Shown: piece after piece, positions 3,350-10,005 of the stretch
Position numbering within the stretch: position 1 is the stretch's first letter
Layout of the letters: each line of letters opens with the position of its first letter
Origin: Gemmatimonadota bacterium
GTDB lineage: Bacteria > Gemmatimonadota > Gemmatimonadetes > Gemmatimonadales > Gemmatimonadaceae
Direction of reading: 5' to 3'
DNA length: 47,504 nucleotides
Assembly: GCA_016200495.1 (NCBI GenBank)
Contig: JACQES010000319.1
Span: forward strand, 1 to 47,504
The notes under the pieces: generated by a model
Told to the model about the DNA's origin: nothing
What the model saw: only the letters and a program-made list of their open reading frames with translations
The model's database searches: none
Position numbers and translations under genes: made by a program

Positions 3350-3938
3350 GCTTCGTCCGCTTCCGCGACGCTGCGGCCTTCGTCGGCGTCGCAGTCTTCG
3401 CAGTCTTCGCAGTCTTCGCAGTGTTCGCGACCTTCGCGACCCTCGCGGCCTTCGCGGCCTTCGCGGCCTTCGCGGCCTTCGCGGCCTTCGCGGCCTTCGC
3501 CGGCCTCCCGGCGGTCGCTCGCCTCGCCACCTGCGTCGCCCCGCCGCGGTTGAGCGCGATTGCCGCGCGCACGAGCGCCGTGAACGCCTCGGCGTCGAGC
3601 GCCTCGCCCTCGCGGATGTCGATCGCGCGGCGCGCATTGCCCTCGAGGCTCGAATTGAACAGCCGCGCCGGGTCGGGCAGGGACGCGCCCTTGTGGAAGG
3701 TCAGCTTGATCACCTGCTTGTACGACTCGCCCGTGCAGATGATGCCGTCGCACTCCCAGACGGGAGTGCCCATCCACTTCCACGTCTCGATGATCGCGGG
3801 GTCCGCGGCGGTGATGAGCTGGCGCATCCGCGCGAGCGTCTCGCCGCGCCAGTCGCCCAGTTCCGCGATCCGTTGCGAGATCCGCGCCGAAGCGGACGGG
3901 TCCTCGGACGCGCTGGATGTCGTGCCGGGGCGACTCAT
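3321..3938 (-). CDS. DUF1801 protein with a lysine/alanine-rich C-terminal tail
   Basis: This 205-residue protein has two parts. Residues of about 18-125 form a DUF1801 (YdhG-like) domain, seen in 'IIETWKWMGTPVWE' and 'VIKLTFHKGASLPDP'. Residues from about 140 to the end are a low-complexity basic tail of AAK/TAK triplets ending in 'KPTPKPRPKR', similar in composition to histone H1 or eukaryote-like bacterial HU tails. The tail is encoded by a 9-bp tandem repeat. The start is an ATG overlapping the SRPBCC stop by four bases, so it is the last gene of the ArsR operon. The longer ORF-track start is a shadow of that upstream gene. DNA binding by the tail is inferred. Confidence 0.85.
   Translation of the reverse strand: MSRPGTTSSASEDPSASARISQRIAELGDWRGETLARMRQLITAADPAIIETWKWMGTPVWECDGIICTGESYKQVIKLTFHKGASLPDPARLFNSSLEGNARRAIDIREGEALDAEAFTALVRAAIALNRGGATQVARRATAGRPAKAAKAAKAAKAAKAAKAARVAKVANTAKTAKTAKTATPTKAAASRKRTKPTPKPRPKR
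3390..3501. repeat. 9-bp tandem repeat inside the DUF1801 gene
   Basis: About a dozen tandem 9-bp units run here, first as GTCTTCGCA variants and then as near-perfect GCGGCCTTC copies. On the coding (minus) strand they read as AKT/AKA triplets in frame, so copy-number change would lengthen or shorten the protein tail without a frameshift. The six near-identical GCGGCCTTC units look recently expanded. Confidence 0.9.
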
Positions 3939-6108: not shown

Positions 6109-7218
6109 ATGGCCACGCTCATTCGCACCAACCGCGACGTCGACGAAGCATTCCTGCCCACCGCCAGGACGATGAAGGCGCTCGTCTTTGCGAAGCCGGG
6201 CGTGGTCGAGCTCCGCGAGAAGCCCATTCCCGCCGTCGGTCCGACCGACGCGCTCATGCGCGTGACGCTCACGACGATCTGCGGCACCGACGTCCACATC
6301 CTCAAGGGCGAGTATCCCGTCCGCGAGGGGCTCACGATCGGCCACGAGCCCGTCGGCGTGATCGCCGCGCTCGGGTCCGCGGTCACCGGCTATCGCGTGG
6401 GGCAGCGCGTGATCGCTGGCGCCATCACGCCGTGCGGCCAGTGCGGTCCGTGCCTCGACGGCGTGCACTCGCAGTGCGGCGGGAAGGCGATGGGCGGCTG
6501 GCGGTTCGGCAACACGATCGACGGCTGCCAGGCGGAGTTCGTGCTCGTGCCCAGTGCGCAGGCCAACCTCGCACCGATTCCCGACACGCTGACCGACGAA
6601 CAGGTGCTGATGTGCCCCGACATCATGAGCACGGGGTTCGGCGGCGCGGAGAGCGGCAAGATCCGGATCGGGGACACGGTGGCGGTGTTCGCGCAGGGGC
6701 CGATCGGGCTGTGCGCCACCGCGGGCGCGCGGCTCCGCGGCGCGTCGCGCATCATCGTCGTGGACCGGCTCGCCGGGCGCCTGGCGGTGGCGCGCACGCT
6801 CGGGGCCGACGACGTCGTGGACGCGAGCACGACGGATCCCGTCGAGGCGATCATGACGCTCACCAAGGGGCGTGGCGTGGACGTGGCGATCGAGGCGCTC
6901 GGCCTGCCGCAGACGTTCGAGAGCGCGCTGCGCGTGCTCCGGCCGGGCGGGACGCTCTCGAGCCTCGGCGTCTACTCGGGCAAGCTGACGTTGCCGCTCG
7001 ACGCGTTCGCCGCGGGGCTGGGCGACCACACGATCGTCACGACGCTCTGCCCGGGGGGACACGAACGGATGCGTCGGCTGATGTCCACGCTCGAGCACGG
7101 ACGGGTGGACCTCCGGCCGCTCGTGACGCACCGGTATCCGCTCGACCGGATCGTCGAGGCGTACGACCTGTTCGGCGCGCAGCGGGACGGCGTGCTCAAG
7201 GTGGCGATCACGCCGTGA
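6109..7218 (+). CDS. zinc-dependent alcohol dehydrogenase, secondary-alcohol type
   Basis: This 369-residue medium-chain dehydrogenase oxidises an alcohol with NAD(P). Catalytic zinc ligands are visible as Cys58 ('TICGTDVH'), His79-Glu80 ('GHEPVG') and Asp171 ('PDIMSTGFGGAE'). Asp in place of Cys in the third position is the pattern of the Thermoanaerobacter/Clostridium secondary-alcohol (isopropanol) dehydrogenases. The structural zinc cysteines 109, 112, 115 and 123 are present, unlike in those enzymes. The cofactor site has 'FAQGPIG'. ATG at 6109 has AGGAGG five bases upstream. A second Met at residue 22 is where most homologues begin, so the N-terminus may carry a 21-residue extension. 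The substrate is not determinable. Confidence 0.9.
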   Translation: MATLIRTNRDVDEAFLPTARTMKALVFAKPGVVELREKPIPAVGPTDALMRVTLTTICGTDVHILKGEYPVREGLTIGHEPVGVIAALGSAVTGYRVGQRVIAGAITPCGQCGPCLDGVHSQCGGKAMGGWRFGNTIDGCQAEFVLVPSAQANLAPIPDTLTDEQVLMCPDIMSTGFGGAESGKIRIGDTVAVFAQGPIGLCATAGARLRGASRIIVVDRLAGRLAVARTLGADDVVDASTTDPVEAIMTLTKGRGVDVAIEALGLPQTFESALRVLRPGGTLSSLGVYSGKLTLPLDAFAAGLGDHTIVTTLCPGGHERMRRLMSTLEHGRVDLRPLVTHRYPLDRIVEAYDLFGAQRDGVLKVAITP

Positions 7219-7241
7219 CGTCGCGATGACGCCAGGGTGAC

Positions 7242-7275
7242 GGGCGGTCGCGGCGCACGGGGGCCGCGACCGCCC
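7242..7275 (+). terminator. strong GC hairpin after the alcohol dehydrogenase
   Basis: GGGCGGTCGCGG and CCGCGACCGCCC form a perfect 12-bp stem with a 10-base loop, starting 24 bases after the dehydrogenase stop. No T-run follows, so it is either a Rho-assisted end or an mRNA-stabilising stem. Confidence 0.55.
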
Positions 7276-7470
7276 GGCCGGGTGAGAAGGCCCCGGGCCC
7301 CCAACGCGTTGCGGGCGGCCGTCTTCGGCGCGCGGGTGCGGGGCGACTCCTCCCCAACACTCGCCCCGCCTCGGCCGTTTATTCTGGGCGAACCAACGAT
7401 TTCCCCGACCGCGCTGTCAGAGTCCGTGGGCGCGGCAGGCGATCGTGGCGACAGGCGTGTCGACATCATC

Positions 7471-7511
7471 GGGGCCGCTCGTCCGCGAGCTCGGCCCCTT
7501 CTCCTTTTTTT
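7471..7511 (+). terminator. intrinsic-terminator-like hairpin in the leader of the TonB receptor
   Basis: GGGGCCG-CTCG pairs with CGAG-CT-CGGCCCC (two-base bulge) around a TCCG loop and is followed by TTCTCC and seven Ts. The T-run ends ten bases before the receptor ATG. A transcript for the receptor would have to pass through this element, so it may act as an attenuator. Between 7276 and 7470 I see no gene; the region is presumably promoter and leader. Confidence 0.6.
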
Positions 7512-7521
7512 CGTGGCGTTC

Positions 7522-10005
7522 ATGCTTGACCGTTCCCTTTCGTGGCGCGCGCCGTGCGCCGCGTTCCTGCTCGCGCTCGTCGCGCCGGCCGCCACGGCCC
7601 AGCGCGGCGGTGGTCCCGGCGAGATCCGCGGCCGCCTGGTCGGCGCCGGGGTGCCGAAGCCCATCGGCACCGGCACGGTCTCGGTGCGCCGCGGCAGCGA
7701 CACCGCGGTGGTCGCGCGGGTCCCCGTCCACGCCGACGGCAAGTTCGAGGTCACGGGCCTCGCCGTCGGCCGCTACGGCATCGCCGTGCGCGCGCTCGGC
7801 TTCGCCCCGCTCACGCGCCTCGCGATCGCGGTGACGGCGGAGCATCCGGTGGTGGAACTGGGCGACCTCGCCCTGACCGAGGTCGTGGTGCAGCTCGAGG
7901 GGCAGAAGGTCGTGGCCGAGAAGGAGGAGGTCGCGCTCTCGCCCGACCGGAACACGTACAGCGCGAAGAACATGACGTCCACGGCCGGCGGCACGGCGGT
8001 GGACGTGCTCCGCAACGTGCCGTCGGTGGAACTCGACGCCAACAACAACGTCTCGCTCCGCGGCAACACGAACGTCGTGGTGCAGATCAACGGGCGCCCG
8101 ACGCCGCTCAAGGGCGACCAGCTGGCGGCTTTCCTCGCGCAGCTGCCGGCCAGCATGGTCAAGCACGTGGAGGTGGCCACCAACCCGTCGGCCAAGAACG
8201 ATCCCGACGGCTCGGCGGGGCTCATCAACATCGTGCTCGACCAGGAGGCGGACATCGGCCTGTCGGGCGGGTTCAACTCGTCGGTCGGCACCACGGGGGC
8301 CGCGCAGCTCTCCGGCAACATCGCGTCGCAGACGGGCCCGTGGACCTGGTTCGTCTCGGCCAGCGGCTCGCTCGACGAGCGCCCGCTCGAGTCGTCGACG
8401 GACCGCAGCAACCATTTCACGACGTCGCCGGCGACGTCGTTCACCAACGGCGACGGCGCGAACCGGGGGCGCTCGGGCGGCCTGACGCTGCGCGGCGAGT
8501 ACCGGCTGACCAAGAAGGACGCCATCACCTTCGACGGGATGTCGTTCGTCGGCATGAACCGCAACGAGAACGGACTCACCCTCGCGAACGCCGACAACTC
8601 CGGCACGCCGACGGGGCTCGTGGACGAGTCGAACCTCGGGCAGTCGCACGGCTGGTCGCAGAACTACAACCTCGCGCTGCGCCACCTGGGCGACCCCAAG
8701 CAGACGGCGTGGTCCACGGAGCTCCGCTACAACGACAACGACAACACGAACGCGTCGGACCTCGCGAACCTGATCCTGCTCTCCGACCCGACCGTGTCGT
8801 CGCTCATCCCGTTCGAGCACGACCTCGCGGCCGGTCGGCAGACCTCGCTCTCGCTGCAGGGCGACTACACGCACCCGTTCGCGTGGGGCGGCAAGCTCGA
8901 GATCGGCGCGAAGGGGGTCGGACGCAACTCGGCCTACCAGTTCAACCCCGCGGTGGCGTCGGGCGTCGGCATGCCGCTCCTGCCCGACACTGCGCGCGCC
9001 ACGGCGTCGTCGTACCACGAGCGCACGGCATCGGCGTACGCGGTCTGGTCGCAGCCGCTCGGGCCGTTGGAGGTGCAGGCGGGGCTCCGGCTCGAGAAGG
9101 CCGACAACAACCTCGAGGTGCCGGCGACGGGGAAGCAGTACGACGTCAGCTACAGCAGCGCGTTCCCGAGCGCGATCCTCCGGTGGAACGCGACGCCGAT
9201 GCGCCAGTTCAAGCTGAGCTACGCGCGGCGCATCTCGCGCCCGGACGCGTTCCAGCTCTACCCGAGCGCCGTGCGGCAGGACGCGCGGAGCGTCTTCAAG
9301 GGCAATCCGTCGCTCCAGCCCGAGTACACCGACTCGTACGAGATGGGCTGGCAGGAAGCGCTGCCGTGGGGCTCGATCCAGGTGACGCCGTTCCTGCGCA
9401 AGTCGATCCAGTCGGTGCGCAACATCCAGACGATCGACTCGGCGGGCACGCTGATCAACACCTTCGACAACCTCGCGGGGACGACGACCTACGGCGCCGA
9501 CGTGAACGTCAACGTGCGCGCCGGTCCGCTCACCGTGAACGCGGGGGGCAGCGCGTACCACTACGCGAGCGACGCGTCGAACCTTCCCGGCAACCTGTCC
9601 ACGACGGCGAAGGTGTGGAACGTGCGCACGGGGATCACCTGGCAGGTGACGACCAAGGCCGACTTCCAGGCGTGGACGTCGTATCGCGGCCCGCAGGTGC
9701 GCGAGGGCGGCTCGAACGACGCCTTCATCTGGATGAACCTCTCGGCGCGCTACAAGCTGTGGGGCGACCAGGGGAGCATCACGCTGCGGGCGAGCGACCC
9801 GTTCGGGCTCACCTACTTCGGCTACCGCACCAACACGCCGCTCATCACCGAGAGCGGGGTGCGCTACTTCGGCGTGCGCGGCGTGTTCATCAGCGTCTCG
9901 CGCAGCTTCGGTCGGGCGCCGCAGTTCCGGCCGAAGGGGCGCGACTCGGGCGACGACACGAACACCGAGCGGCCGCCGACGGCGGGGCCGCCGGGGGCGA
10001 AGTAG
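7522..10005 (+). CDS. TonB-dependent outer membrane receptor
   Basis: This 827-residue protein begins with a Sec signal ending 'ATAQ'. Next is a carboxypeptidase-like regulatory domain (about residues 30-110), then a plug domain ('GGTAVDVLRNVPSVELD', 'VSLRGNTNVVVQINGRP', 'VEVATNPSAKNDPDGSAGLINIVL'), then a beta-barrel of the outer-membrane beta-barrel type 3 family. The last strands ('SARYKLWGDQGSITLRASDPFG') are followed by a polar tail of about 30 residues after 'VSRSFGRAP'. It imports an unknown large substrate with TonB energy. No SusD or transporter partner is adjacent. The ATG was chosen because it begins the signal peptide; no good ribosome binding site is visible, and an in-frame GTG lies three codons upstream. 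Confidence 0.9.
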   Translation: MLDRSLSWRAPCAAFLLALVAPAATAQRGGGPGEIRGRLVGAGVPKPIGTGTVSVRRGSDTAVVARVPVHADGKFEVTGLAVGRYGIAVRALGFAPLTRLAIAVTAEHPVVELGDLALTEVVVQLEGQKVVAEKEEVALSPDRNTYSAKNMTSTAGGTAVDVLRNVPSVELDANNNVSLRGNTNVVVQINGRPTPLKGDQLAAFLAQLPASMVKHVEVATNPSAKNDPDGSAGLINIVLDQEADIGLSGGFNSSVGTTGAAQLSGNIASQTGPWTWFVSASGSLDERPLESSTDRSNHFTTSPATSFTNGDGANRGRSGGLTLRGEYRLTKKDAITFDGMSFVGMNRNENGLTLANADNSGTPTGLVDESNLGQSHGWSQNYNLALRHLGDPKQTAWSTELRYNDNDNTNASDLANLILLSDPTVSSLIPFEHDLAAGRQTSLSLQGDYTHPFAWGGKLEIGAKGVGRNSAYQFNPAVASGVGMPLLPDTARATASSYHERTASAYAVWSQPLGPLEVQAGLRLEKADNNLEVPATGKQYDVSYSSAFPSAILRWNATPMRQFKLSYARRISRPDAFQLYPSAVRQDARSVFKGNPSLQPEYTDSYEMGWQEALPWGSIQVTPFLRKSIQSVRNIQTIDSAGTLINTFDNLAGTTTYGADVNVNVRAGPLTVNAGGSAYHYASDASNLPGNLSTTAKVWNVRTGITWQVTTKADFQAWTSYRGPQVREGGSNDAFIWMNLSARYKLWGDQGSITLRASDPFGLTYFGYRTNTPLITESGVRYFGVRGVFISVSRSFGRAPQFRPKGRDSGDDTNTERPPTAGPPGAK

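Follow-up and report, generated by a model that had tools for sequence, protein, structure and literature searches.

The question raised by this locus is whether a hairpin with a thymine run, placed directly before the start codon of a TonB-dependent receptor gene, is a regulatory attenuator of that gene. The locus was analyzed in a window of 47,504 nucleotides (nt), contig C33 of a Gemmatimonadota genome of 4.14 Mb in 431 contigs. The hairpin and its tail are probably a terminator-type sequence, and this putative terminator is private to the species among the available genomes. Our preferred, still tentative reading is a leaky, unregulated and lineage-specific intrinsic terminator in a pyrimidine-rich receptor leader that is poor in Shine-Dalgarno (SD) signals. 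The element and its gene have the following parts.

7471-7498, plus strand: hairpin, GGGGCCGCTCG / TCCG / CGAGC-TC-GGCCCC

7499-7511, plus strand: pyrimidine tail, a TTCTCC gap followed by seven thymines (T7, at 7505-7511)

7512-7521, plus strand: ten-base spacer CGTGGCGTTC before the start codon, without SD-like sequence

7522-10005, plus strand: TonB-dependent receptor of 827 amino acids with a signal-peptide-like N terminus, a carboxypeptidase-regulatory-like domain, a plug and an OMP_b-brl_3 barrel

The hairpin has 11 base pairs (bp), an outer 6 bp (GGGGCC/GGCCCC) and an inner 5 bp (GCTCG/CGAGC), with a TCCG loop and a 2-nt bulge (TC) in the 3' arm. Folded alone, positions 7471-7498 have a stability of -19.6 kcal/mol, and a 65-nt segment containing the hairpin has a z-score (z) of -2.4 against dinucleotide shuffles. 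A first scan of the window did not list the hairpin, presumably owing to the bulge. It ends 23 nt before the receptor ATG. A preceding sequence-only reading of this DNA had described a stem with a T-run that ends ten bases before the ATG. The stem sequence, its coordinates and the ten-base distance (7512-7521) hold, but the T-run does not directly follow the stem, TTCTCC lying between them. An in-frame GTG is present at 7513; the alignment with the sister species agrees with ATG 7522 as the start.

Genome statistics were drawn from 591 kb of the 4.14 Mb with our own crude gene calls; this sample has a GC content of 71%, and called genes cover 87% of it. In a terminator score of the d'Aubenton-Carafa type, the receptor site reaches d = 20.9 and ranks 13th among 349 candidate sites of the sample. 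Twelve of the 13 sites scoring at least 20.9 are intergenic. Against dinucleotide shuffles, 11 intergenic sites of this score class were observed, compared with 1.1 ± 1.4. Together with the rarity of T7 (see below), this intergenic excess makes the receptor site probably a terminator-type sequence and gives statistical support to the terminator-like character proposed before. The stem-proximal tail (TTCTCCTT, 5 T of 8) resembles that of other intergenic terminator-like sites in the same genome. Strong hairpins by themselves are common here: an equally stable one is found within 6 nt at 8% of intergenic positions.

T7 occurs at 5 distinct places in the whole genome, one of them in the 591-kb sample: the 3' end of an rpmA-like gene, the rimP leader, the gap upstream of a FabI-like gene, a site with a weak hairpin, and the receptor leader (the names rpmA, fabI and rimP are what we take the translations to be). 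Four of the five come after a stable hairpin. The sister species retains hairpin and T-run at three of them (rpmA-like 3' end, rimP leader and FabI-like gap), and a hairpin followed by T7 therefore appears to be a used signal in this lineage. A hairpin and T-run close to a start codon are also found at rimP (22 nt) and at the FabI-like gene, so this geometry is not unique. At the FabI-like gene the hairpin with T7 ends 27 nt before the start codon (L150, G000:C68:30000-38000, about 3587-3650; L194). Its stem is altered in the sister species and the T-rich tail is missing in all four other relatives checked; it is probably the 3' terminator of an upstream peptidase-like gene.

A gap of 303 bases separates the stop codon of the upstream gene (7218) from the receptor ATG (7522). 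The upstream gene and the features of the gap are as follows.

6109-7218, plus strand: zinc-dependent alcohol dehydrogenase gene, the upstream neighbour

7241-7276, plus strand: perfect 14-bp hairpin (inverted repeat) without T-run, 22 nt past the dehydrogenase stop codon

7345-7470, plus strand: leader region 5' of the receptor hairpin, kept in the sister species as judged by alignment against shuffles

7356-7385, plus strand: proposed candidate promoter area with conserved CCAAC..CCGTTT and AT-rich TTTATTCT

The sister species (G001) is the only genome with a close orthologue of the receptor (79% protein identity). Its intergenic region aligns at 7345-7470 with a score of 67 against 19.9 ± 3.7 in shuffles (z about 12.6). 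For the segment of hairpin and tail the score is 23 against 16.1 ± 3.8, and similarity there is not clear. Alone, the sister segment can form a shorter, shifted hairpin (GGGGCU/AGCCCC, -14.8 kcal/mol), so the hairpin may not have been lost there; folded within a longer segment, the sister sequence takes a different predicted structure. This stem comparison covers two sequences, the receptor leader and the one of the sister. The sequence-only reading had named a leader not conserved as a structure in relatives as grounds for refuting an attenuator, and this largely applies: in the one available sister the sequence of the leader 5' of the hairpin is kept and the terminator segment is not, with the T-run gone and the predicted fold different. 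The gene upstream of the sister receptor is protein-kinase-like and not a dehydrogenase. Because 7345-7470 is kept despite this different neighbour, the block probably carries the promoter of the receptor. The candidate area at 7356-7385 contains no match to the sigma70 consensus, and neither sigma70 consensus matching nor a search for enriched dyads yielded a confident promoter.

The element does not recur in other receptor genes. Distant orthologues have 38-50% identity, and in none of their 18 readable leaders, one of which (L018) has a doubtful start, was a T-run above 4 found in the last 60 nt. Likewise, none of the 28 other plug-domain genes of the genome has a positive-scoring terminator site before its start, these starts being assigned automatically and one gene (L235) having almost no upstream sequence.

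The sequence-only reading had gone further and proposed an attenuator with its signal in the leader. The analysis does not support this proposal: we found neither antiterminator, Rfam match, leader peptide nor recurrence to go with it. For an alternative anti-terminator, which it had suggested looking for, ensemble folding gave nothing above shuffled leaders. When transcription is taken to start at 7387, 7400 or 7432, the terminator is the dominant fold (probability, P, 0.99). For a start at 7421, P of the terminator falls to 0.24 as its 5' arm is engaged in an alternative fold, and 11% of shuffled leaders match this. The fold of the whole intergenic region has z = -0.5. The remark that the leader resembles no recognisable riboswitch agrees with an Rfam 15 search of the window at the gathering threshold, which gave no match; a permissive search returned only a chance match inside the gene (E = 8). 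Riboswitch-controlled TonB receptors exist, for example with a cobalamin riboswitch. The receptor leader is like theirs in being untranslated and differs in matching no Rfam family. No ATG is present in 7345-7521 and no closed leader peptide was found; GTG frames extend past the start codon. A literature search for attenuated SusC/TonB leaders, judged by titles and abstracts, found nothing relevant. An attenuator that depends on a protein may have no antiterminator that can be seen. The claim that receptor transcripts must read through the hairpin agrees with the sequence, in which we see no sigma70-like promoter from the hairpin to the ATG and no TTGAC or TANNNT-like element at 7478-7515; transcripts started upstream would therefore have to cross the hairpin.

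The rimP leader of the same genome served as a positive control.

L151 (G000:C323:1-4749), minus strand: rimP leader with nine thymines (T9) at 3673-3681; also L164-L193

In it a sigma70-like promoter (TTGACG-N16-TACTTT) is followed by a short leader with a hairpin (TGTGGGG/CCCCACA) and T9, at 22 nt from the ATG. The rimP loci were taken from 30 genomes, this one and 29 relatives that were the best matches of a wider search, and a hairpin with T6-9 precedes rimP in all 30. An alignment of 29 leaders shows a near-invariant 10-bp stem with compensatory changes at two pairs. The strict rimP pattern occurs once each in 26 of 41 genomes, compared with zero in the reversed control. Rfam 15 at gathering gave no match in six rimP loci. 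The element appears to be a Gemmatimonadota form of the rimP-leader attenuator known from the 2010 paper of Naville and Gautheret (PMC2965389). In Bacillus subtilis, NusA autoregulation acts via intrinsic termination in its leader (PMC12288461). The receptor element shares with the rimP leader a hairpin and T-run some tens of bases before the ATG and the lack of a visible antiterminator. However, in the rimP leader the T-run abuts the stem and the element recurs; no such recurrence is seen for the receptor element.

Naville and Gautheret listed 15,930 candidates for premature-terminator attenuators in 302 genomes, so a single candidate of this kind is common. The receptor element fits their positional filter but lacks recurrence in a gene family, which was their criterion for real attenuator families (PMC2965389); the main text of that paper makes no mention of TonB. 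Intrinsic (Rho-independent) terminators are similar to the element in their GC-rich hairpin and U-rich tail, and its score lies among those of the intergenic terminator-like sites of this genome. It differs from them in the TTCTCC between stem and T7, in its position next to a start codon and in its distance of 252 nt past the stop codon.

The layout of hairpin and pyrimidine tail was compared with other starts of the sample, using 291 starts with a free upstream region for start statistics and 307 upstream regions for promoters. SD-like 4-mers are present at 23% of starts against a background of 19%, a small signal. Pyrimidines (C/T) are enriched at about -26 to -13, and C is found at -1 in 66% of starts. 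Hairpins of -13 kcal/mol or stronger ending 15-29 nt before the ATG number 45 in 163 genes, compared with 30-47 in column shuffles; a general hairpin peak at this distance is thus not significant. At 0-14 nt strong hairpins are clearly depleted (24 against 36-42 in shuffles). Since hairpins at 15-29 nt are at the level of shuffles and starts are pyrimidine-rich in general, the layout at the receptor is ordinary, and T7 is its unusual part. The last 30 nt before the receptor start are 80% pyrimidine, a level reached by 2% of genes. Three sigma70-like promoters were located 33-39 nt ahead of start codons, a spacing suggestive of very short or leaderless messenger RNAs (mRNAs) in this genome.

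As a leaky, unregulated terminator the element would meet RNA polymerases that started at an upstream promoter belonging to the receptor or that read through from the dehydrogenase gene. A fraction would be released in the U-rich tail and the remainder would transcribe the receptor, the element acting as a fixed brake for which we found no hint of signal sensing. The analysis shows the sequence, its predicted stability and rarity, and the missing T-run in the sister; we infer that termination occurs, as well as its extent and the upstream position of the promoter. Loss of the T-run in the nearest relative, together with the lack of other receptor genes with the element, makes such a local leaky stop most likely, and not a sensor switch. 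Several points weigh against it. The T-run is missing in the only relative with a homologous leader, where a C-rich stretch precedes the ATG. T7 starts 6 nt beyond the stem, compared with a gap of 0-1 at the three conserved T7 sites, and about one in ten intergenic sites of such a score is expected by chance. With 252 nt between the upstream stop and the hairpin, the distance is large for a 3' terminator in this genome, where 7 of 12 intergenic terminator-like sites lie 37-114 nt past a same-strand stop. Finally, a brake that always acts immediately ahead of a start codon would lower expression. A possible, though in our view less probable, explanation gives the element no role in termination: a common GC-rich hairpin outside the ribosome footprint would be joined to a pyrimidine-rich initiation region lacking SD sequence, and T7 would be a chance expansion. 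The genome-wide C/T enrichment and weak SD signal fit this explanation, as do the shuffle-like frequency of hairpins at this distance, the 80% pyrimidine content, and the pyrimidine-rich stretch without T-run that the sister retains. However, T7 is very rare in the genome and mostly follows hairpins, and the score class of the site is about 90% above chance.

A regulated attenuator, in which the leader responds to a ligand, a protein or the ribosome and toggles between termination and readthrough of the receptor, is unlikely. Its position 10 nt before the ATG and 252 nt from the upstream gene, which passes the filter of Naville and Gautheret (PMC2965389), the conserved upstream leader and the alternative fold from 7421 speak for it. 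The T-run is not conserved, however, the 7421 alternative is equalled by 11% of shuffled leaders and is gone for the three other starts, the intergenic fold is not unusually stable (z = -0.5), and Rfam match, leader peptide and recurrence in orthologues or paralogues are all missing. Its more specific form, a species-specific attenuator of this Gemmatimonadota receptor that would sense through 7345-7470, we regard as improbable. We likewise give little credence to the hairpin being the 3' end of another transcript, either a long 3' untranslated region of the dehydrogenase or an intergenic small RNA, with the receptor expressed by readthrough or from an unrecognised promoter next to its start (leaderless or with a very short leader). 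The three promoters at 33-39 nt would allow such short leaders, and several other terminator-like sites lie 7-56 nt ahead of the next gene. Nevertheless, the promoter-like elements sought at 7478-7515 are absent, 252 nt past a stop is atypical, and the perfect hairpin at 7241-7276 is the likelier 3' end structure of the dehydrogenase mRNA.

If the receptor element terminates, it would be one more lineage-specific premature terminator, mainly of use as a caution. In a genome with 71% GC and pyrimidine-rich, SD-poor starts, a hairpin with a T-rich tail next to a start codon says little about regulation if it does not recur, and the rimP leader is an example of a conserved element with such a geometry. 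If the element were regulated, it would mark a new point at which an outer-membrane receptor is controlled in Gemmatimonadota, a phylum with, to our knowledge, little regulatory work.

A DNA search with the leader and start against 179 genomes of the family gave only short matches of roughly 25-75 bases, a few of them to about 7425-7474. A recurrent match to 7567-7613 was discarded as an effect of composition: three of the four loci inspected lie antisense to a reading frame that is presumably FtsH-like, and one is a signal-peptide-like region.
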